From: Deltaproteobacteria bacterium
GTDB lineage: Bacteria; Desulfobacterota; Desulfarculia; Adiutricales; Adiutricaceae
Direction of reading: 5' to 3'
Length of the DNA: 49,099 nucleotides
Assembly (NCBI GenBank): GCA_031264185.1
Contig: JAISEL010000043.1
Location: forward strand, 1-49,099
The position numbers were made by a program, and so were the translations under genes. Below are positions 16,369-46,926 of the stretch, one piece after another (position 1 is the first letter of the stretch; every line of letters begins with the position of its first letter). The notes under the pieces were generated by a model, which did no database searches, was not told the origin of the DNA, and saw only the letters and a program-made list of their open reading frames with translations.

Positions 16369-16538
16369 TTCTCAAGCTCAGGGGTCTGACCGCTCCGGGC
16401 GCAATAATTTACAGAATATAATTGGCCTGTACTTTATGGCTGATTAATAATAAGTCAGGCTGATCAAACTATTGAAGGCTAAAGGCGTATTCGTCTTTGG
16501 TCTTTTTTTGTCCCTGGCTTACCAACGGAGATATGCGT

Positions 16539-17435
16539 ATGGGCAGAAAGGCCGCCTCTAAACCCAAAAAACTGAAGCAGATTGCTGTTTACGGCAAGGG
16601 AGGCATCGGCAAATCCACCACCACATCCAACTTAAGCGCCGCGCTGTCTGATTTAGGCTATAAGGTGATGCAGTTTGGCTGCGACCCCAAGGCCGATTCC
16701 ACCAATACTTTGCGTGACGGAACCTATATTCCGACCATCCTGGAACTTCTGAAGGAAAAAGGCAAAGTCGAGGCCAAAGAAGCAATTTACGAAGGCTATA
16801 ACGGCATTTATTGCGTTGAAGCTGGAGGTCCCTCCCCGGGTGTGGGGTGCGCCGGGCGGGGTATAATCACGGCGGTCCAGCTTTTAAAGCAGCAGAAGGT
16901 CTTTGAGGAACTGGAGCTGGATTACGTCATTTACGATGTCTTGGGCGATGTGGTCTGCGGCGGTTTTGCCGTACCCATCCGGGAAGGGATCGCCCAGCAC
17001 GTCTTTACGGTCACCTCGTCTGATTTTATGGCCATTTACGCAGCCAATAATCTTTTTAAAGGCATCCAGAAGTACTCTAAGGCCGGGGGAGCTTTATTGG
17101 GGGGCGTGATTGCCAATTCCGTCAGCAGCGGATACCAGAAATCCATTGTCGATGATTTTGCAGCCAGGACCAAAACCCAGGTCCTTCAGTACGTGCCCCG
17201 CTCAATTACGGTCACCCAAAGTGAGCTGTCCGGCAAAACGACCATAGAAGCGGCCCCTGATTCGGAGCAGGCCGCCGTGTACCGGGCTCTGGCCAAACGG
17301 GTCGAGGCTCACGAAGAATCGGTCACGCCCAGTCCCTTAGACGCCCAGGAACTCAGAGAATGGGCCACCGCCTGGTCTGATCAGATTCTGGCCATAGAAA
17401 GAGGCGAGGTGCGTTCAGCCGGAGCTCAGATTTGA
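16539..17435 (+). CDS. NifH/BchL/CfbC-superfamily Fe protein (nitrogenase-like)
   Basis: A homodimeric ATPase that passes electrons through a bridging [4Fe-4S] cluster to a nitrogenase-type partner. The 298-residue product has the P-loop GKGGIGKS at 19-26 and both cluster cysteines: C104 in GVGCAGRG and C140 in DVVCGGFA. Thus the reductase itself looks functional. The ATG at 16539 has GGAG eight bases upstream and is preferred over the ATG at 16533 and the TTG at 16497. No nifDK, nifEN or nifB is present. The sequence after it is the eroded remains of a component-1-like gene. It therefore most likely belongs to the non-fixing nitrogenase-like groups, whose members act in tetrapyrrole reduction, methylthio-alkane reduction or unknown reactions. 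The exact reaction is not assignable. Confidence 0.85.
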
Positions 17436-28061: not shown

Positions 28062-30083
28062 TTAAAGGTCAATTAAACTTTTGGAGACGCTCTGGCCGGC
28101 GCCGCGCAGCAGGATATTTAACGCGGCCAGAAGATTGGTAAAGGCCCGGGACATCTGGGGCTGGTCCCCGGGCAGAAAGACCAGAGAGTCAGCGGACATG
28201 ACCCCGCAGGCTTCGCTTAAAAGCTGGCTTAATTCAAAAATTTTGTCCGCTTCGGTCTTCAGGGCCGACACGTCCCTGAACTGATGGCGCATCTCGCCCC
28301 AGCCGGTGCGGTAAATGACGTCCATGGTCCGGATGAGCCGCTCGGTCTCCGGTTCCTCGAAATTAAAGGTCACTGAAACCGGACCCTGGGCGTGAGTCTG
28401 CCAGATGGTCTGGGGATTAAGGGTATGAAACTTAATAGGCGGAAACAATTCGGCCAGTCCGGCCAGATATTCGGTCAGCTGGGTCTCGGTCACCCTGGCT
28501 TCGGGGCTTTCAAGCAGGGGGACCTTCTGGGACGGGCCGTAAAGCTGATTGCTGACCAGCCAGGCGCAGGCTTTGGCCGCCCGGGAGGTCTGGTAGATGA
28601 TATTTTTATCCAAAAGAAAATCACCGCCCTTCCGTCCGTCCTGTGGCCGGTGAAAGACAGACCAGATCTCATGGTCTTTGCGGAAATACATCTCGGAGGA
28701 GAGATTTTGCCTTATTATATGGGAGGGCAGAAGTTCAACCGTAGCCTCGGTTCCGCCTAACCGGCCCAGCATCCGGGCGGCCATGGGCGCCAGGACCTCG
28801 TTCTGGGCGTCGACCTGACCAGGAAAATGGGTCATCAGGGTATTGGCGATGATCATATAGCAGCTGAACAGAAGCTTAAGCAGCTCCTGGCCCTGATTGA
28901 GCTGCTCGCGGTTGGACCACCGGTCGTAATTGTAAAGGTGAATCAGCTTTTCTTCCGGCCAGTGCCATTCCCGGATCCATTTGGCCAGAACCCGGCTTTT
29001 CGGGTCATTCCCGTTCAAATCAGGCAGAGGTCTGGAGCTTTGGGCGCGGCCCAGAACCTTTAAGACCGCCGCCTCTTCCACCAGATTCAGCTGCTGGCGG
29101 GACAGCTTGCGGGACACGAAATCAATGACCCGGTCCACAGTGATAATGTATGGATCAACCGGGATGTCGGGGTCTGTATTTAATAGGATCTTCTCTTTGA
29201 CAATATCGCATAGGAGGGGACTGGCGAAATTCGTCTCCACAGCCTCCAGAATAGGCATAATCTTCAGCAGCCCTTTAAAAGGATTGTCTTCCGATTTGCA
29301 GGTCAGCCACATGGCCGAGGCCAGATATTCCTGGGGCCTGGGCTTGGAGGGGAAGCCTAAATCCACGTAAAAAGGCGGCTGGCCGGTCCAGTCCAGGGGA
29401 GCCAGCTTAACGGCCGCTGCCCGGTATTCTTTTTCCGGCCGTCCGGTCGGCCAGACGCACCACAGAGGAATCCGGCCGGCCACATATAATATGGTCCGGT
29501 AAAGCTCTTCCACCAGAAGCATGGGGGCCACTTCCCCGTCCCGTTCTTCATTGTGGGTCTCCAAGCGGCCCTGGGCCAGGACCGACAGATCGATCGGATA
29601 GAAGTTGGCCTCGGTTTCATGCTCGTCCATGGCCCATTGGGAGAGTGCCAGAAGCTTTTCCCGGAACAGGGCCAGACTCCGGCCGTTTAAGCGCGACGGC
29701 CGGTAGCAGACCCAGTAGTCCAGATCCGACTGAGCCGTATGGCCGACCGAACCCGAAGAGCCGATCAGAACGAGGCATTCCACAACCGGATCACTGACGA
29801 CGGTCCGGGTCCAGGGACCGGAGGCCGCAGTTTCCGCTCTCTCCAGCCACTGGTCATAGAACAGAAGGCCGTGGGGCGTGCTGGGATCAGCCTGATAGCC
29901 GGGCAGAGAAGGATGATTGTAGTGAAGGAGAGCGGGAGTCAGATCAAAGACCTGCTTAAAGCCCGGGGTGGCCAGGGCCCGCAAATCCCTCGTTCTGGCC
30001 CGGTTATTGCGGGTCTGGAACTGTAAAGTGGCCGAGATAAGCGAATTTAAGGCCTCAGGTTTTTCGGTTGATGGCTCTCTCAT
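28062..30083 (-). CDS. cyaA: Class I adenylate cyclase
   Basis: Makes cAMP from ATP. The 673-residue product carries the class I nucleotidyltransferase-fold core: GSSGSVGHTAQSDLDYWVC at 108-126, with metal-binding D120 and D122, followed by NFYPIDLSVL, which supplies the third acidic residue. The N-terminal domain and helical middle resemble the CyaA family, but the protein is about 175 residues shorter than E. coli CyaA, so the C-terminal regulatory region is reduced. A good promoter lies so close to the ATG that the message may be leaderless. A likely cAMP target, the PilB fusion, is encoded 11 kb away. Divergent from fliC. Confidence 0.88.
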   Translation of the reverse strand: MREPSTEKPEALNSLISATLQFQTRNNRARTRDLRALATPGFKQVFDLTPALLHYNHPSLPGYQADPSTPHGLLFYDQWLERAETAASGPWTRTVVSDPVVECLVLIGSSGSVGHTAQSDLDYWVCYRPSRLNGRSLALFREKLLALSQWAMDEHETEANFYPIDLSVLAQGRLETHNEERDGEVAPMLLVEELYRTILYVAGRIPLWCVWPTGRPEKEYRAAAVKLAPLDWTGQPPFYVDLGFPSKPRPQEYLASAMWLTCKSEDNPFKGLLKIMPILEAVETNFASPLLCDIVKEKILLNTDPDIPVDPYIITVDRVIDFVSRKLSRQQLNLVEEAAVLKVLGRAQSSRPLPDLNGNDPKSRVLAKWIREWHWPEEKLIHLYNYDRWSNREQLNQGQELLKLLFSCYMIIANTLMTHFPGQVDAQNEVLAPMAARMLGRLGGTEATVELLPSHIIRQNLSSEMYFRKDHEIWSVFHRPQDGRKGGDFLLDKNIIYQTSRAAKACAWLVSNQLYGPSQKVPLLESPEARVTETQLTEYLAGLAELFPPIKFHTLNPQTIWQTHAQGPVSVTFNFEEPETERLIRTMDVIYRTGWGEMRHQFRDVSALKTEADKIFELSQLLSEACGVMSADSLVFLPGDQPQMSRAFTNLLAALNILLRGAGQSVSKSLIDL

Positions 30084-38878: not shown

Positions 38879-39709
38879 CTAAATCCGGCCTCTCAGCTTA
38901 CGGAATAAAGAGGCCAGAGCCAGAAAGGCCAGACTGACCAGCACCACCGTAGCTCCGGTCGCGGTATTGACCTCCGGACGGCGGGAGAGCCACAGGCCCA
39001 GTTGCCCCGCAGCCAGGGAAAAAAATAGGGCCAGCCAGAAAAACGACCGGCCCGAGGCGGCTAAAACCCGCCCGGTCGCAGCCGGGGTGACTAATAAGGC
39101 CGTAGCCAGAAGCACGCCCACCACCTGTACTGCCAGAACCGAGACGACGGCTAAAAAAGCCCCGAACAGATAATCGGCCCAGGGCGTCTTTTCTAGACCG
39201 GCCGGAAAAACAGCTGACAGGATCAGGCGGTTATAGAACAGAAAAAATATTAGATAGGCGATTATGTCTAAAACGAGCAAAGCGGCAATCTCCTCGTTTC
39301 CCACAGTCAGGATGTCGCCCATCAGCCAGCGGGTCAGTCCGGCTGTGGCTCTGGGATTGCGGCTGATTAGGGCCAGACCTAAAGCTACGGCTCCGGAGAA
39401 GACCAGAGCTAAGGAAGTATCGGAGGCCAGCTTGGCCCTTCTGGTCAGAAAAGTGATCATAAGGCCCAGTAAAAGACCGAAAATCGCAACTGCCGTCTGA
39501 GGATCCAGGTTTAAGACCACGCCCGCAGCCAGACCGGCTAAAACCGAGTGACCCACCGCATCGGGGAAAAAGGCCATTCGGCGGCTGACGGCCAGAACTC
39601 CGGCTCCGGACACGGCCCATGACAGAAGAAAAAGAGCCGCCATAGCCCGGCGCATAAACAGGGGTTCATAAAAGACAGCCAGGGCGCTGTAGAGATGCTC
39701 AAAGATCAT
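38879..39709 (-). CDS. znuB: Zinc (or manganese) ABC importer, permease
   Basis: Inner-membrane permease of the ABC-3 family. The 276-residue product shows about eight hydrophobic helices and the family text FFPDAVGHSVLAGLAAG near the cytoplasmic coupling region. It begins one base after znuC ends and is the last gene of the unit. Metal choice between Zn and Mn cannot be settled from the permease. Confidence 0.9.
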   Translation of the reverse strand: MIFEHLYSALAVFYEPLFMRRAMAALFLLSWAVSGAGVLAVSRRMAFFPDAVGHSVLAGLAAGVVLNLDPQTAVAIFGLLLGLMITFLTRRAKLASDTSLALVFSGAVALGLALISRNPRATAGLTRWLMGDILTVGNEEIAALLVLDIIAYLIFFLFYNRLILSAVFPAGLEKTPWADYLFGAFLAVVSVLAVQVVGVLLATALLVTPAATGRVLAASGRSFFWLALFFSLAAGQLGLWLSRRPEVNTATGATVVLVSLAFLALASLFRKLRGRI

Positions 39710-39710
39710 T

Positions 39711-40460
39711 TCAGGCGGCCCCGACCAGAGGGGAGCTTATGGGAGGTTCCTGTTCCGAACCGAATATCAGCCCCTGGTGGAGTCCGAATGTAGCTGAGAG
39801 GATGCCGGGCTGAAATATATCCAGGGGCGGTCCCTGGGCCACTACCCGGCGGTTAAGGCAGATGACCCAGTCCCCGTGGGCTCTGGCGGTGGCCAGATCG
39901 TGACTGACCATGATGACCGTAAAACGGTCCTTAAAGCCGTCTAAAAGTTCGCATAGAAGCTGCTCGCCGTAGACGTCCACCCCGGTGGCCGGTTCATCTA
40001 AGATTAAGATGTCCGGTTCGGTCAAAAGGGCCGCAGCCAGAAGAATCCTCTGGGTCTCGCCGCCGGAAAGGCCGCCCAGCGGTTTTTTAAAGAGCTTTTC
40101 GGCTTTAACCAGTTCCAGAGCCTCATCAATCCTTTTTTTAATCCCTCCGGATATGCCCAGCCAGACCGGTTTTCGGGCCAGGCCCAGGGCCAGAAATTCG
40201 CCGGAGGTCAGGGGCAGGAACCGGTCAAAATCCGGCCTCTGGGGTACATAGCCGAGTCTGGGCTTCAGGGGATCGAAGGTAATCCGGCCGGTGTGGGGCA
40301 GCTGTCCAAGGAGGCAGTGCATCAAAGTGCTTTTGCCGCCGCCGTTGGGCCCGATGACTACGGTCTGCCGGCCGCAGGGCACCTGGGCCGTAACATCTCT
40401 CAGAACCTCAAACTCTCCTAAGGCGGCCCCCACTCCGGTCAGTTCCACCGCCGCTTTCAC
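39711..40460 (-). CDS. znuC: Zinc (or manganese) ABC importer, ATPase
   Basis: Cytoplasmic ATPase that drives the ZnuB permease. The 249-residue product has Walker A GPNGGGKST, the Q-loop in YVPQR, the ABC signature LSGGETQR, Walker B DILILDEPATG and the switch histidine in VSHD. Its ATG overlaps the znuA stop by four bases, so translation is coupled. Confidence 0.93.
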   Translation of the reverse strand: MKAAVELTGVGAALGEFEVLRDVTAQVPCGRQTVVIGPNGGGKSTLMHCLLGQLPHTGRITFDPLKPRLGYVPQRPDFDRFLPLTSGEFLALGLARKPVWLGISGGIKKRIDEALELVKAEKLFKKPLGGLSGGETQRILLAAALLTEPDILILDEPATGVDVYGEQLLCELLDGFKDRFTVIMVSHDLATARAHGDWVICLNRRVVAQGPPLDIFQPGILSATFGLHQGLIFGSEQEPPISSPLVGAA

Positions 40461-41548
40461 GGGGCACCGGGATCAGGATAACTGGCTTCGGTCTCCGGCA
40501 GGGAGGCATTGGCCGGCAGAAGACGGGCTAAAATTATGAGGTTTTCCCTCATGACTTTCTGGTAATAGTCCGGCTCCGGTTCGGCCGGCCCCGAGGCGGC
40601 CGGATCTATGACTGCGGCCTGAACCCGGCCCTCGCCGGCTAATGTCCTGGCCAGACTGAGATCCCCGTAAGGGTCGGCTAAAACGGCGCTGATGGTTCCG
40701 TTTTTAATTAAACCGGCCAAAGCTTCCAAGCGGGCCGCCGAGGGCGGAGTTTCCGGGGCCGGTTCAATGTCGGCCAGAATAACCAGACCCAAGTCCTGGG
40801 CCAGATAATCCATGAACCCGTGGGATGTAATGAGCCTGTAGCCTTTCCGGCTGCGACTGAAGGAGTTTATGAAGCTGGAAATATAGTCCATATCGGCCTG
40901 AAAAGCCGAGGCCCGTTCCCGGTAAAAGCCGGCTCCGTCGGGATCGGCTTTGGCCAGGCCTTCGGCTATGTTATTGGCCATTCCGGCGGCTAATCTGGGA
41001 GAAGAGAAAATATGGGGATTGGGCGATAAGGATTCCAAACTGCCCTGGGGGGCGGTCCTTTGACTGTCCCGGTCGCCTAAATCCAGGCGGCCCCAGGTCA
41101 GAGCCAGGGTCGGGAGGCCGGCGCTGGCGTCAATAATAATTATGTCTTTGGGCGCGACTTTTATGGCCCGGTCTAAAAAAGTCTCCAGACCCAAACCGTT
41201 TTTAACCAGGACTTTAGACTGGGACAGGCGCTCTAAATCACGCGGCGTGGGGGCGAACTCATGGGGGCAGCCGGTGGCCGGATCTGTCAGAAGTTCAACC
41301 CGGAAATAATCCCGGCCCAACGTCAGATAGCGGGTGAACAGCCAGACCGGATAGCTGGCGGCCATGAGCCTGGGACCGTCGGCCCGGGCTGCCGGGATCA
41401 GAGCCGGCAAGAAAAAAATTGTCAATAAAATCAAAAGGACCGAAAAAACAGCCGGAAGGCTTTTTTTCGGTCCCTTAAATGGTAAGAGGTCCGGCCGGCC
41501 GGATGGGCCGTCAAACTTTACCGGGCCTGGGTCGCTATCTTTGCACAT
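40457..41548 (-). CDS. znuA: Zinc (or manganese) ABC importer, periplasmic binding protein
   Basis: Captures the metal in the periplasm and delivers it to ZnuB. The 363-residue product has an unusually long, polar N-terminus (about 30 residues) before the signal-anchor helix (VFSVLLILLTIFFLPAL, ending near AARAD). The cluster A-I metal ligands are visible: H96 (CPHEFAPTP), H179 (NPHIFSS) and H243 (SHGFMDYL). The histidine-rich loop of many zinc binders is missing, so the metal is not certain. The chosen ATG overlaps the end of pilB by 14 bases; a later start nearer the signal peptide is possible. Confidence 0.87.
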   Translation of the reverse strand: MCKDSDPGPVKFDGPSGRPDLLPFKGPKKSLPAVFSVLLILLTIFFLPALIPAARADGPRLMAASYPVWLFTRYLTLGRDYFRVELLTDPATGCPHEFAPTPRDLERLSQSKVLVKNGLGLETFLDRAIKVAPKDIIIIDASAGLPTLALTWGRLDLGDRDSQRTAPQGSLESLSPNPHIFSSPRLAAGMANNIAEGLAKADPDGAGFYRERASAFQADMDYISSFINSFSRSRKGYRLITSHGFMDYLAQDLGLVILADIEPAPETPPSAARLEALAGLIKNGTISAVLADPYGDLSLARTLAGEGRVQAAVIDPAASGPAEPEPDYYQKVMRENLIILARLLPANASLPETEASYPDPGAP

Positions 41549-44234
41549 CCCGGACTTCCCTCAGTATTTTGGCCGCCGGAGCCGAATCAGGCATGACCCG
41601 GAGCTGCTGAGTCTGATCGGCCGGCAAGAGATTTCGGACAAAGGAGCTTCTGGTCATATCAGCGGCCGGAAGGGCGGCCGAGACCGGCTTGGGCTGAGAG
41701 GCTGCGGGTCTGGGCAGGGCCGTCTGAGCCTGGGGCGGAATCAGGGTCGATTTGGCTAAGCCGGCGGCCGCATCCTGACCCGAGACCGGTCTGGCCATCA
41801 GCACAGGCCCTTTGCCGGCCCCGTTGCCGTTGCCGCCGGCCGGTTTGGCGGCCTCGGTTTTTTTGGCCGCCAGTTTGGCTAAAGCCGAAGGTTTCGAGGA
41901 GGTGGCGATATTGCCGATGCCTCCCTTGGGGGCGCTGGCTATGGGCCGGGAACCGCCGGGAAAACCGCCGGCCGAGGCGATGGAAGGAGACAGCTGGTTA
42001 ACGTAGGTCCTTTCCAGTTCTATCCGGTTCTGCATCATCTCCGACAAGCGGTTGCCGGATTCGTTGAGCCTTAAAACCAGGGTGTCGATTATCTGCTTGG
42101 AGATATCCGGATAGTTTTCCAAAACCTCCCCGAGTTTGTCGCCCGGAAAAACTTTGACAATGGAGCGGCCCTGGCTTTTGATGGTGGCGCTGCGGCGGGA
42201 ACCCACCAAAGCGCTCATTTCCCCGAAGTAGGTATTGGTCTGGGAAATTTCGGCAATGAGGTTCTGGCCTTTGTAAACTTCCAGGCAGCCTTGGATGAGC
42301 CGGTAGAAAGCCGTGTCGGTGTTGCCTTCTTTAATTATAACGTCCCCGTTCTCAAAAATCTGCTCATCGGGATTCAGAAGATAGTGAGGCAGGGATTCTT
42401 TCTGGATAACCGTTTTCTCCAGCACCTGGTCCAGAGTCGTCATGCCCTGCTGGGCTTTCAAAAGACCGTCCTGCCTTAGGGTCAGCATGCCTTCTTTCAG
42501 GGCGATTTTCCTTAACTGGCTTTCCGGAACTTTTGAGGCAATAGCGTCGGATACGGCGGGGGTGTTCTCCATGACCTCAAAAACCCCCAGCCTTCCTTTG
42601 TATCCGGTGCCTTTGCAGGTCGGGCAGCCCCGTCCTTCATAGAGCTGGACCGTCCCTATTTCTTTGGAGTCATAACCGGCTTCCGCCAGCTTGTTTAAAG
42701 GCAGTTTCGTAATGGTATGGCGGCAGTTGGGGCAGACCCGCCGTAAGAGCCTCTGGGCTGAACAGACGATCAGAGCCGCCGCCACGTTAAAAGGAGCCAC
42801 GCCCATATCCACCAGACGGGTAACGGTGGACGGAGCGTCATTGGTGTGGAGGGTCGACAGAACCAAGTGGCCGGTCATGGCTGCTTCCACAGCTATTTCG
42901 CCGGTTTCGATATCCCGGATCTCGCCGATCATACAGATGTCAGGGTCCTGCCGTAAAAACGCTTTCAGGGCCTTGGCAAAGGTCATGCCCACATCCTTGA
43001 CCACGTTCACCTGATTCACGCCGGGGAAGTTAAACTCGACCGGATCCTCGGCCGTTAAGATTTTGACGTCATCGGTATTGCGCAGGTTCAAGGTGGAGTA
43101 CAGAGTCACGGTCTTGCCGCTGCCGGTGGGGCCGGTAACCAAAAGCAGGCCGTTGGGCCTGTACGCAGCCCGCATGAACTGGTCCAGGTTTTTTTCCGTA
43201 AAGCCCAGCTTGGTCATATCTACGTTTAAGCCGGATTTATCCAAAATACGGAGAACGACCGATTCGCCGAACAGAGTCGGCAGAGAGGACACCCGGAAAT
43301 CAATCTCTTTGTTTTTGCCCAAACGCAGCTTGATACGTCCGTCCTGAGGCACCCGGCGTTCGGTAATGTCCAGACTGGCCATGATCTTCAGACGGGCAAT
43401 TAAAGCGTTACGGATTTCCAGAGGCAGCCGGGTATGCTTGTAAAGAGAGCCGTCCATGCGGTAGCGGACATAGAACTGCCTTTCAAAAGGCTCTATGTGG
43501 ATATCCGACACTCCGGCCTGGACAGCCTGGATGAGGATTTGGTTGGCCAGGTTAATTATGGCGCTGTTTTCGGCTGAGTATGTATCGCTGGAGATGTCTT
43601 CGTCTTTGGATTCCCCGAAAGCGAAGTCGTCCAGAGCGTCGGAGATAAGGGCCCCCAGGTTGTCAACCGTGACCGGGCCGGTGTCTTCGGCAACGGCGTT
43701 GGGATCCAAGGGGAGGTAGAAGGATGCCTCTTCGGCTTCGGAGATTTTATAGTGAGTCTTAAAGGCATTGACCAGATCTTTTTCCGTTGATACGGCCGGC
43801 ACGACAGAAAGCTTAGTCAGATTAGTCAGCTCCTCCACCACTTTGCTGTTAGTGGGCTCAACCATGGCCATTAAGACTTTGCTGTCTTTGACCTGATAAG
43901 GCAGGACCATGTAACGCTTGGCCAGATCGTAAGAAACCAGACTTAAAACCTGAGGCGGAATTTCCCGATCAGTCAGGTTAACCATGGGGTAGCTGTACTG
44001 GCGAGACAGAACACTGGCAATAGTGTTATTTTCTACGTAGCCTTTTCTCAAAAGGAAACGGGACAAAAGATCCTGAGGGTGAACTTTAAGCCATTTTGTT
44101 GCTTCCTCCAGATGACCGCGGGTTATCTGACCGGCCTTAAGCAGGTATTCTCCTAAAAGAAGCTTATAATTGTCTCCGGACTGATCTTTGACCGTACCTG
44201 ACAGAGTTGAGCGCCGACGAGTGATCTCTGCCAT
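41535..44234 (-). CDS. pilB: Type IV pilus/type II secretion assembly ATPase fused to a cyclic-nucleotide-binding domain
   Basis: A hexameric motor ATPase for pilus extension or pseudopilus assembly. The 899-residue product has four parts. An MshEN/T2SSE_N domain (about 20-130) has the two repeat motifs around LLGEYLLKAG and LLSRFLLRKG. The GspE/PilB ATPase domain (about 220-600) has Walker A at 368-375 (GPTGSGKT), the Asp and His boxes and the C4 zinc site (C501, C504, C537, C540). A Crp-like cNMP-binding domain follows (about 625-740), with phosphate-binding cassette FGEMSALVGSRRSAT at 670-684, including the arginine. A Pro/Ala-rich tail makes up the last 130 residues. Ordinary PilB ends at about 570 residues. 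GGGAGG precedes the ATG. It overlaps znuA. Confidence 0.9.
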   Translation of the reverse strand: MAEITRRRSTLSGTVKDQSGDNYKLLLGEYLLKAGQITRGHLEEATKWLKVHPQDLLSRFLLRKGYVENNTIASVLSRQYSYPMVNLTDREIPPQVLSLVSYDLAKRYMVLPYQVKDSKVLMAMVEPTNSKVVEELTNLTKLSVVPAVSTEKDLVNAFKTHYKISEAEEASFYLPLDPNAVAEDTGPVTVDNLGALISDALDDFAFGESKDEDISSDTYSAENSAIINLANQILIQAVQAGVSDIHIEPFERQFYVRYRMDGSLYKHTRLPLEIRNALIARLKIMASLDITERRVPQDGRIKLRLGKNKEIDFRVSSLPTLFGESVVLRILDKSGLNVDMTKLGFTEKNLDQFMRAAYRPNGLLLVTGPTGSGKTVTLYSTLNLRNTDDVKILTAEDPVEFNFPGVNQVNVVKDVGMTFAKALKAFLRQDPDICMIGEIRDIETGEIAVEAAMTGHLVLSTLHTNDAPSTVTRLVDMGVAPFNVAAALIVCSAQRLLRRVCPNCRHTITKLPLNKLAEAGYDSKEIGTVQLYEGRGCPTCKGTGYKGRLGVFEVMENTPAVSDAIASKVPESQLRKIALKEGMLTLRQDGLLKAQQGMTTLDQVLEKTVIQKESLPHYLLNPDEQIFENGDVIIKEGNTDTAFYRLIQGCLEVYKGQNLIAEISQTNTYFGEMSALVGSRRSATIKSQGRSIVKVFPGDKLGEVLENYPDISKQIIDTLVLRLNESGNRLSEMMQNRIELERTYVNQLSPSIASAGGFPGGSRPIASAPKGGIGNIATSSKPSALAKLAAKKTEAAKPAGGNGNGAGKGPVLMARPVSGQDAAAGLAKSTLIPPQAQTALPRPAASQPKPVSAALPAADMTRSSFVRNLLPADQTQQLRVMPDSAPAAKILREVRDVQR

Positions 44235-45534
44235 TAGTGCCTCCCAAACGAACTACTAATAAATACAAAGAGAATAAATTAATTAACTGAAATAACAGAA
44301 AAATTACAAAAATTAAGGCGGATTATAGAAAGTCCGGTTGACCTAATCTGTGGGAAAATTCGGCCTTTACCCTAATTTAGTATTATACAGAAATGGTTCG
44401 GATTATCAAGAAAAATCAAATCTGTTCCATTGTAGAAAAATTGGAAAAAACTATTCTCATCATCCCGCAGCTTAGGACAGCTGGATTACGGGATCAGCGA
44501 AGAGCGCCGACTGCGGCCGGTCTTACGGCTTCTCCCCGAGAGCCGGTGCCCCGGCTCTGCGGCGCCTGCCTCCCGGTCAGGCCGGGGACCGCATTCCGGA
44601 CTGACCTGTTCCCGCGTCTTCAGATCGAACTCGTCCGGCAAGAGCTTGCAGAAAGAACAGGTCCTGGAACCCGGGAAAAACCGTGGGCGCCTCATGAGCT
44701 GGGCGCCTGGCTTAAGCGCTGCCGCTCCAGCCTGTGATGAAGCCGCCGGCACCCAGGTCTGTCGTAAAAAAATTAAAAACAGCCTGCTGATAATAGTCCC
44801 AAGGTTCAGGAGCCAAATTTCTTAGGCCGGGGCGGGATACAGAGCCGTCTTGAAATGGAAGTCCCTCAGGCCGAAGTCGGGGCCGACGCTGTCACCCGAA
44901 TTTTGCTATGCCGGCCTGAACTCCTGATCCGTGAAGTACAGCCGGAAACCGCCTGCGGCGTCCCGCTTCGCCATAAGCCGTCTTATCGCTTGAAACGTTC
45001 TTTACTCATGCGGCCAGTTTTAATACACGCATGCTCCTAAGTCAAGAAGACGGGCAAAAAGGCCCCCGACTCTCATCCCGGCAGCTAAAGCCTTGGATTC
45101 TCCCGGCGTAATCTTCATAAATTCGGGTCAAACCCATGGCGAAATCAGTCTTTTCCCGGGCCGCAGGTCTCATGACCCGGGTCAAACAGTCCAGGACTTA
45201 AAAATAAGTCTTACTTCCAAAGGGGATAATTATCGGTCTGAGGAGGCAACTTACTTATAAATTATGACCATAGATTATACCCCGGCCAAAGAAAAAAGAA
45301 AATTTATTGGCTAAATATACTGCCGTCATCAGCCGCCGGGTAGCTTTCGGTCCCGGTCTGGATGAGGCGGCAGACGAAAAAGTCGGGGACCTTCCCTTGA
45401 CCGCAGCCCCGGCAAGTGTCAAACTGGCCCGGTCTTAAGTGGTGTTCTGTTTCAAGGGGGAACCCCCGGCTGTCCGGGACAATGAGGCTGAAATACAGTT
45501 TAATTATGCCCGGGCTCCTAAAAAAGGAAATATT
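44235..45534. other. Long spacer between divergent pilB and radA, decayed
   Basis: No intact gene is recognised in 1.3 kb. Two TATAAT strings on the - strand (at 44322-44327 and 44382-44387) could serve pilB. On the - strand, the text EKTDFAMGLTRIYEDYAGRI near 45090-45160 and, further right to left, PEPWDYYQQAVFNFF near 44770-44815 look protein-like but are broken by stops. A lost - strand gene may lie here. No stable RNA gene was recognised. Confidence 0.35.
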
Positions 45535-46926
45535 TTGGGTAAAAGCGCATCCCGGTTCATCTGCCGTCAGTGCGGACATCAGGTATCCGGTTGGCTGGGC
45601 CGCTGTCCGGCCTGTCAGGCCTGGGAAAGTTTTGATCTTATAAACCCCGGTCCCCGGTCAGGCAGGACGAACGGACGAAAAGCTCAGGTCTTAGCCGAGG
45701 TGCCGGCGGAAGATACTGTCCGTCTGTCCACCGGTCTGGCCGAACTGGATCGGGTTTTAGGGGGCGGATTGACTCCGGGCGGGGTTATCTTGCTGTCCGG
45801 GGAACCGGGGGTGGGCAAATCGACTCTTTTATTGGCCGCTGCCGCCGGTCTGGCCAAAAACGGACGGAAGCTTTTGTATGTAACCGGCGAGGAATCGGCG
45901 GCTCAGGTCCGGTTAAGGGCCGAAAGACTGGGTCTGGATTTAAAAACCCTCCACGTTCTGGCTGAAACCGAAGTTACCGGCATCATTGAAGTCTCTCAGG
46001 CCGAAAAGTGGGACGCTCTGGCTGTGGACTCCATCCAGACCCTGAAAGTGGCCGAGCTGGGCAGCCAGTCCGGCAGTCCCAGCCAGATCCGGGAGTCGGC
46101 AGCCCGGCTGACTAATCTGGCCAAATCCAAAGGCTGGCCGCTGTGGCTGGTGGGCCACATCACCAAAGACGGCCAGATAGCCGGACCGAAGCTTTTGGAG
46201 CATCTGGTGGATACGGTGCTGTACTTTGAGGGGGAGAGGGACCGGCCGCTGAGGATTTTACGGTCATTTAAAAACCGGTTCGGCTCAGTCAATGAAACCG
46301 GAGTCTTTGAGATGACCGGAGCAGGCCTGGGGGAAGTCAAAAATCCCTCGGCTCTGTTTTTGGCCGAACGGCCGAACGGGGCCTCAGGTTCGGTCGTATC
46401 TCCGATTATGGAAGGCCACCGGCCAATACTCATGGAAATTCAGGCTCTGGTCAGCCCCAGTTCTTTGGCCATGCCCCGGAGGCAGTCCCTGGGGGTAGAT
46501 CCGGCCAGGGTCAGTCTTTTGGCCGCCGTTTTGGAGAAAAAAGTCCGCCTGAAGCTGTATGACCGGGATATTTTTGTCAATGTGGCCGGCGGAGCCAGAG
46601 TCAGCGAGCCGGCCGCCGATCTGGCCATTGTGGCGGCCCTGGCCTCCAGCTGGATGGATAAAGCCCTGCCGAAAGATCTGGTGGTGGTGGGGGAAGTCGG
46701 TCTGGCCGGAGAAGTGCGCCGGGCCGGACGTCTGGGCGACCGGCTTAAGGAAGCGGCCCGGCTGGGCTTTAAAAAAGCTGTGGCCCCAGAATCGGAAATA
46801 GACGCTGTCCGGGAAAAAGGTCTGAATCTGACCGGGGTCGGAAGCGTTTCGGAGCTGCTGGTGGATCAGCTGGGCCTGACGCCTCACCAGAGGTCTGGCA
46901 GCCGGTTTCCTCAGGAGGAACTTTGA
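45535..46926 (+). CDS. radA: DNA repair protein RadA
   Basis: A RecA-like ATPase with a Lon-like tail that helps branch migration and processing of recombination intermediates. The 463-residue product starts with the C4 zinc finger (CRQC and CPAC within the first 30 residues). Walker A GEPGVGKST, the RadA-specific KNRFG motif and the Lon-protease-like C-terminal domain (MPRRQSLGVDPARV, VNVAGGARV) follow. The frame is open from 45439, but the TTG at 45535 has AGGA six bases upstream and places the zinc finger at the start as in other RadA proteins, so it is chosen. Confidence 0.93.
   Translation: MGKSASRFICRQCGHQVSGWLGRCPACQAWESFDLINPGPRSGRTNGRKAQVLAEVPAEDTVRLSTGLAELDRVLGGGLTPGGVILLSGEPGVGKSTLLLAAAAGLAKNGRKLLYVTGEESAAQVRLRAERLGLDLKTLHVLAETEVTGIIEVSQAEKWDALAVDSIQTLKVAELGSQSGSPSQIRESAARLTNLAKSKGWPLWLVGHITKDGQIAGPKLLEHLVDTVLYFEGERDRPLRILRSFKNRFGSVNETGVFEMTGAGLGEVKNPSALFLAERPNGASGSVVSPIMEGHRPILMEIQALVSPSSLAMPRRQSLGVDPARVSLLAAVLEKKVRLKLYDRDIFVNVAGGARVSEPAADLAIVAALASSWMDKALPKDLVVVGEVGLAGEVRRAGRLGDRLKEAARLGFKKAVAPESEIDAVREKGLNLTGVGSVSELLVDQLGLTPHQRSGSRFPQEEL

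Follow-up and report, generated by a model that had tools for sequence, protein, structure and literature searches.

The 49,099-nucleotide stretch analysed here (the window; contig JAISEL010000043.1 of assembly GCA_031264185.1, from a member of the Adiutricaceae, Desulfobacterota) encodes, at 41535–44234 on the minus strand, a protein of 899 amino acids (aa) in which a PilB-type motor is joined to a cyclic-nucleotide-binding domain (cNBD). Pfam and NCBIfam matches place all of its parts in this single open reading frame (ORF), and the following features lie on the same strand. An MshEN domain (PF05157; 43737–43997, aa 80–166, 62.6 bits), a T2SSE motor domain (42420–43571, aa 222–605, 437 bits) and a cNMP-binding beta-roll (PF00027; 42111–42359, aa 626–708, 48.4 bits against a cut-off of 27.5) each score above the curated Pfam cut-off. 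They are preceded by a degenerate region corresponding to the N-terminal motif pair for cyclic di-GMP (c-di-GMP; 43998–44156, aa 27–79). The beta-roll contains a phosphate-binding cassette, FGEMSALVGSRRSAT (42183–42227, aa 670–684), and is followed by a long C-terminal helix resembling the C-helix of CRP (42003–42110, aa 709–744) and by an Ala/Pro-rich tail and stop codon (41535–42002, aa 745–899), delimited from alignments and ORF lengths. Between motor and cNBD lies a junction (42360–42419, aa 606–625) containing ESLPHYLLNPDE. The NCBIfam equivalog model for PilB, TIGR02538, scores 684 bits (cut-off 675.65); its match stops at aa 608, which is model position 562 of 564, and the cNBD begins about 20 residues further on. 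A preliminary description of this DNA had placed a cNBD with a well-formed cassette beyond the normal end of PilB, and the domain searches that it called for bear this out.

The motor shares MshEN and T2SSE domains, Walker A, His box and zinc tetracysteine with Geobacter PilB (5tsh, 5zfr) and the TIGR02538 family, and in the model match its sequence identity to the Geobacter protein is 52–54%. Walker A (GPTGSGKT) occupies aa 368–375 and the tetracysteine comprises C501, C504, C537 and C540; the columns of both, and of the catalytic core, are invariant in 46/46 aligned fusions. The Geobacter protein terminates behind the motor (chains of 582–588 aa, matched up to aa 610 of the query), whereas a cNBD follows in the fusion. 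The two also differ in that the c-di-GMP motif is degenerate in the Adiutricaceae.

Relatives were sought initially in 60 genomes, 41 from the window's own order, taken as Adiutricales because Candidatus Adiutrix is among the nearest named loci, and 19 from the rest of the class. The cNBD is present in 36 of the 41 Adiutricales genomes at 68–100% identity, in 33 cases within ORFs of 606–1221 aa and in three within shorter ORFs, at least two of which are at contig ends. From the 19 genomes outside the order came only cNBDs of no more than 39% identity; the six inspected belong to cNBD-PAS and other proteins. A scan of GTDB species genomes returned 72 loci, comprising 54 T2SSE/cNBD fusions, one further locus that a contig end truncates at the cNBD, and 17 different proteins. 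MshEN is present in these fusions wherever the contig extends far enough or the start was read, several being N-terminally cut. The recurrence of the fusion throughout this independent collection (54 of 72 loci), and in near-complete genomes too (CP026657, L093), excludes read-through or an assembly chimera. The records are labelled as Deltaproteobacteria metagenome-assembled genomes (presumably of insect-gut type, given how the isolates are named), Candidatus Adiutrix, Nitrospinota/Nitrospinales, Tectomicrobia and 'Nitrospirae'. In a set of 395 Desulfobacterota genomes, a cNBD match at E≤1.1e-44 was obtained for 31, in an ORF of PilB size or cut by a contig end, and T2SSE was confirmed in the 30 that were retrieved as loci. 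The survey across genomes proposed in the preliminary description finds the fusion in Adiutricales, several other Desulfobacterota families, Nitrospinota and the records bearing the labels Tectomicrobia and Nitrospirae. In viral contigs, 26 stretches fit the search pattern, none of which codes for a relative of the fusion.

A motor tree was built from 43 fused and 23 unfused T2SSE proteins, the unfused ones being chosen by the author. One branch (100/100) parts the fused from the unfused motors, and the fused clade adjoins eight unfused PilB-type rows (95/88, starred), apart from a TfpB/GspE-like motor, L198, of the window's own genome. The simplest reading of this topology is that there was one fusion event, followed by descent with some transfer or loss. 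A search of the open-access full-text literature, outside which lie most subscription papers and all bioRxiv preprints, found no description of a PilB/GspE-cNBD fusion. The part of PMC2246266 consulted has no matches for 'pili', 'secretion', 'GspE' or 'type IV'.

Conservation of the pocket was assessed over 74 distinct fused cNBDs out of 94 collected, and pairwise identities over 46 fusions. The cassette residues F670, G671, E672, R681 and A683 are invariant in 74/74, as are R722 of the C-terminal helix, P616, Y618, P622 and D623 of the junction, and P697, G698 and K700 of an FPGxK segment, in which 69 domains have F at position 696 and five have Y. Mean pairwise identity is 45–53% for MshEN, 71–76% for T2SSE, 72% for the beta-roll and 79% for the junction, the highest value measured. 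With FGE and Arg in its cassette, the domain belongs to the canonical class according to the motif given in the part of PMC2246266 available. A different explanation would be that the cNBD no longer senses a nucleotide and has a structural or docking role, such as promoting hexamer assembly by the long C-helix or recruiting a partner. The CRP-like helix, the unusual invariant FPGxK and the invariant junction all point to protein contacts, and certain other cNBDs have altered cassettes or different ligands (PMC2246266, in part). However, retention of the phosphate-contacting Glu and Arg in 74/74 domains across phyla is unexpected for a purely structural domain. In related tandem-cNBD proteins, described below, the N-terminal cNBD has a changed cassette, which indicates that drift occurs once constraint lifts. 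A purely structural role is thus considered very unlikely.

When the isolated cNBD was modelled with AlphaFold2, three of five models were good, the best with a predicted local distance difference test score (pLDDT) of 88.6. The top VIA-align matches of this model are Pseudomonas aeruginosa Vfr with bound cyclic AMP (cAMP; Z 17.1, root-mean-square deviation 2.8, 124 aligned) and CRP with cAMP (Z 16.6), and Foldseek places it among HCN and PKA domains. The fusion resembles CRP and Vfr in its cNBD fold, in its long C-helix and in the completeness of its phosphate cassette; unlike them it has no DNA-binding domain, its output domain being a secretion/pilus ATPase. HCN, CNG and SthK channels, PKA and PKG, found as sequence and fold matches, likewise have a cNBD fused in cis to a working domain, but in the fusion that part is a hexameric pilus motor.

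An alternative is that the ligand is cyclic GMP (cGMP) or, as with CRP relatives of the Clp type, a cyclic dinucleotide, and that this messenger gates the motor in place of cAMP. Ser or Thr stands directly behind the cassette Arg in 63/74 domains, the same pattern as in PKG families, GELALLYNDPRTATVIA and GERALLYDEPRSATIKA (Table 1 of PMC2246266). The best-scoring solved sequences for the cNBD profile include apicomplexan cGMP-dependent kinases, and CLP, which responds to c-di-GMP, also matches in fold (Z 14.9). Against this, the top fold scores are those of cAMP-bound CRP and Vfr, and HCN and CRP illustrate that Ser/Thr in this position is compatible with cAMP. Another ligand appears unlikely on this balance, to which the distribution of cyclases, considered below, adds points on both sides.

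In all 34 fusion genomes compared, the PilB part finds its best match in the fused ORF (497–1175 bits), the best unfused match anywhere reaching 468 bits. This suggests that the fused protein is the pilus motor of the genomes that bear it, with pilus extension as its predicted function. The window's genome encodes five T2SSE proteins above the cut-off and one weak match below it. The five are the fusion, a 605-aa motor, a PilT-family pair and one protein judged from its neighbours to be of conjugation type. The 605-aa motor is nearest to TfpB/GspE models yet falls under their cut-offs, and the genome has a single T2SSF (PilC-type) platform protein, with two adjacent matches within one ORF. Since a second, distinct extension motor, TfpB, is known in Acinetobacter baylyi (PMC8213720, in part), a two-motor system is possible by analogy in the window's genome. 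Elsewhere, genome G352 has a fused PilB and a plain PilB. In another, G414, a gene for a GAF-MshEN-T2SSE protein (L186:6474–8780, minus strand) lies directly upstream of the fused pilB and abuts it, giving this genome another motor that carries a sensor domain.

Two 24-residue c-di-GMP motifs were defined in MshEN domains by Wang et al. (PMC5013675, in part). Alignment confirms the earlier remark that the first motif of the 899-aa protein is without its leading Arg, and reveals that the second is likewise without it; in addition, Gln is lost from the first motif and Gly is replaced by Ser in the second. As a regular expression for the motifs proved too strict (both were found in just two of seven ordinary PilB controls), the curated hidden Markov model NF053729 was used instead. 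The whole protein scores 28.9 bits and the N-terminal domain 31.2, short of the cut-off of 38. At E≤1e-9, which approximates to this cut-off, the model is matched by none of 26 Adiutricaceae fusions and by 28 of 31 fusions of other lineages, those with truncated N-termini being placed in neither set. The latter 31 include two Adiutricales of other families, one of which (L092) fails. The suggestion that the motor reads two second messengers is thus not upheld for the window's protein and would fit most of the fusion lineage instead. Because the model fails in the Adiutricaceae and passes in the others, the ancestor of the lineage may have read both signals. GGDEF matches number 1–15 per genome in the Adiutricaceae (four in the window's genome) and 8–32 in the 19 other genomes of the class. 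It is possible, and is put forward tentatively, that the fusion represents an ancient class of motor with a c-di-GMP input at the N-terminus and a cyclic mononucleotide input at the C-terminus, and that the insect-gut Adiutricaceae lost the former, in keeping with their small GGDEF set, leaving direct control by cAMP or cGMP only.

The window also encodes a class I adenylate cyclase (28062–30083, minus strand), a candidate source of cAMP although not an operon partner. It matches Adenyl_cycl_N (PF12633, 139.9 bits) and Adenylate_cycl (PF01295, 84.6 bits), each against a cut-off of 27, but misses the NCBIfam equivalog cut-off for class I cyclases (270.9 bits for the best model against 802). It is a short, divergent relative of these enzymes, in which GS..GSVG....SDLDYW is taken to be an apparently intact nucleotidyltransferase motif. 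The preliminary description was correct in noting such a gene in the window, but its nearness to pilB carries less weight, as the two are about 11 kb apart and their linkage is confined to the genus. A cyclase and a fused pilB on the same contig were seen only within genus g1 (G002, G003 and the window), and in a near-complete relative, G029, the class I cyclase and fused pilB are about 2 Mb apart. A cyclase-pilB operon as a general link is ruled out by these observations.

Co-occurrence at the level of the genome holds better than gene linkage. Domains of class I cyclases, enzymes known as adenylate cyclases, are present in 35 of 41 Adiutricales genomes, which counts against cGMP or a dinucleotide as the ligand; they occur in none of the 19 from the rest of the class. 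Class III cyclases, found in 53 of these 60 relatives, can produce cAMP or cGMP, which counts in favour of another ligand. A cyclase of class I or class III is encoded by 35/36 Adiutricales that carry the fused cNBD. Among the distant fusion genomes, class III cyclases are universal, being present in each of 25 Desulfobacterota and 12 genomes of Nitrospinota type, compared with 18 of 25 Desulfobacterota without the fusion (Fisher p=0.001 with the 37 pooled, p=0.0096 with the 25 fused Desulfobacterota). This comparison is confounded by phylogeny, and because the unfused set is a convenience sample taken in handle order and the genomes are related, the co-occurrence is supportive, not proof.

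Taken together, these data suggest that the fusion is probably a motor for pilus extension on which a cyclic nucleotide, most likely cAMP, acts directly as the gating signal. Direct control is the most economical reading because the cNBD is canonical, is constrained across phyla, has a predicted fold like that of CRP and Vfr, and is attached to the genome's own PilB. In CRP, PKA and HCN, ligand binding shifts the helices behind the beta-roll. By the mechanism proposed, a cyclic mononucleotide, most probably cAMP, would occupy the six cNBDs of the motor hexamer, and in each of the six subunits the helix movement would be relayed, via the conserved short junction, to the point where the motor's C-terminal domain ends, altering the ATPase cycle or docking to the platform. 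A loose tether is disfavoured because the junction is short and highly conserved. Pilus extension would then be switched directly and not via transcription. Across most of the lineage, c-di-GMP is probably sensed as well, by MshEN, while in the termite-gut Adiutricaceae, with the c-di-GMP site decayed, the cyclic nucleotide would be the remaining direct input. We infer the identity of the ligand, the geometry of the hexamer and the timing of the switch; its effect may be activation or inhibition, with cAMP either starting or stopping extension.

Several points weigh against direct gating by cAMP, besides the phylogenetic confounding of the cyclase comparison. One fused Adiutricales genome, G025 (87% complete), has no class I or class III cyclase that could be found. 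The structure prediction is favourable in that the isolated cNBD folds like cAMP-bound Vfr and CRP, but two of its five models were poor (about 46). In a model of residues 1–745 (mean pLDDT 73) the motor reproduces the Geobacter type, whereas the cNBD is unreliable (below 50 at residues 611–643 and 672–704); the coupling interface between motor and cNBD is not visible in it, and no claim about an interface is drawn from it. By hand alignment, an invariant Asp (D640) appears to occupy the position of PKA Gly169 in the beta2–beta3 loop, a Gly that is said to be conserved together with the cassette Arg in domains that bind cAMP (PMC2246266, in part). The base-contact positions of the C-helix are variable, with S, A or T at 726 and N, D, G or S at 727. 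These positions do not discriminate between cAMP and cGMP, and because they vary, nucleotide specificity may differ among lineages. On the question of the Gly, CRP likewise lacks it and yet binds cAMP.

Gating of the motor itself by cAMP would differ from the known routes, in which cAMP controls type IV pili via transcription and c-di-GMP acts via MshEN or FimX/PilZ-type proteins. In P. aeruginosa, for example, cAMP influences pili through transcription by Vfr (PMC11656802, in part). Vibrio cholerae MshE and other c-di-GMP-binding MshEN motors offer a parallel, as there too the motor reads a messenger directly and the N-terminal domain is related, but the messenger, the domain and the end of the protein involved are different (PMC5013675, in part). 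If the proposal holds, a built-in receptor for cyclic mononucleotides would allow post-translational control of pilus extension by cAMP, and the fusion would be a natural two-input motor for asking how a ligand changes the PilB hexamer. The breadth of the lineage makes relatives from several Desulfobacterota families and Nitrospinota usable for this purpose, and members that have naturally lost the c-di-GMP site would serve as a built-in comparison.

In the Adiutricaceae, the tail (41538–42002, without the stop codon) closes in alignment with a fairly conserved stretch, SF.R.LLPADQTQ...PAAKILRE, which is possibly a docking peptide. This raises the idea that the cyclic nucleotide is a signal for localization or turnover only, leaving ATPase kinetics unchanged, and that the tail, long and of low complexity with its conserved end, is the true effector-binding part. 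Outside the Adiutricaceae, however, most fused members stop shortly past the cNBD, so the ancestral function cannot have required the tail. A signal of this kind is accordingly regarded as highly improbable, and gating of the motor by the nucleotide is preferred.

In a cNBD tree of 106 columns, many forks of which are weak, the PilB cNBDs have as their nearest non-PilB relatives the second domains found in stand-alone tandem-cNBD proteins (L167–L179, for example L168:4908–5747 and L172:4978–5811) from other Desulfobacterota families (97/93). These proteins, of 250–300 aa, differ from the fusion in being motor-free; the first cNBD is degenerate and the second canonical. Several of the genes lie beside miaB, and in family f39 they are near genes for CheA, CheY and PilZ-domain proteins. 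A fused PilB and a tandem cNBD never occur together in one genome among the 395, but with a few dozen of each this absence is not significant by a hand estimate. The cNBD-PAS proteins (L059–L062, L180 and L181), from other genomes of the class and phylum, are about 440–460 aa long and have a hydrophobic segment and a similar cassette, FGEMSFLLGSRRTAT.

Directly downstream of the fusion gene, on the same strand, are genes for a ZnuA-type protein, an ABC ATPase and an ABC-3 permease (38879–41548). The ZnuA ORF overlaps that of the fusion by 14 bp (the pair spans 40457–44234), and among the 24 Adiutricaceae loci for which a downstream ORF was called, 15 have a ZnuA-type gene as the next ORF on the same strand. 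PilB-type motors bind zinc at the tetracysteine, as known for EpsE, and for this reason the pairing of ZnuA and pilB may not be idle. The upstream gene (45439–46926) is presumably radA, as named from its sequence. Elsewhere in the window, a NifH-like protein (16497–17435, plus strand) scores 405 bits against the nitrogenase iron protein cut-off of 394.35. In eight loci of Nitrospinota type (L100, L103, L105, L108, L110, L113, L114 and L119), a TolC-like outer-membrane gene lies behind the fused pilB, and in most of these an ATP-grasp-like gene, a sigma-54 activator or both are next in line.

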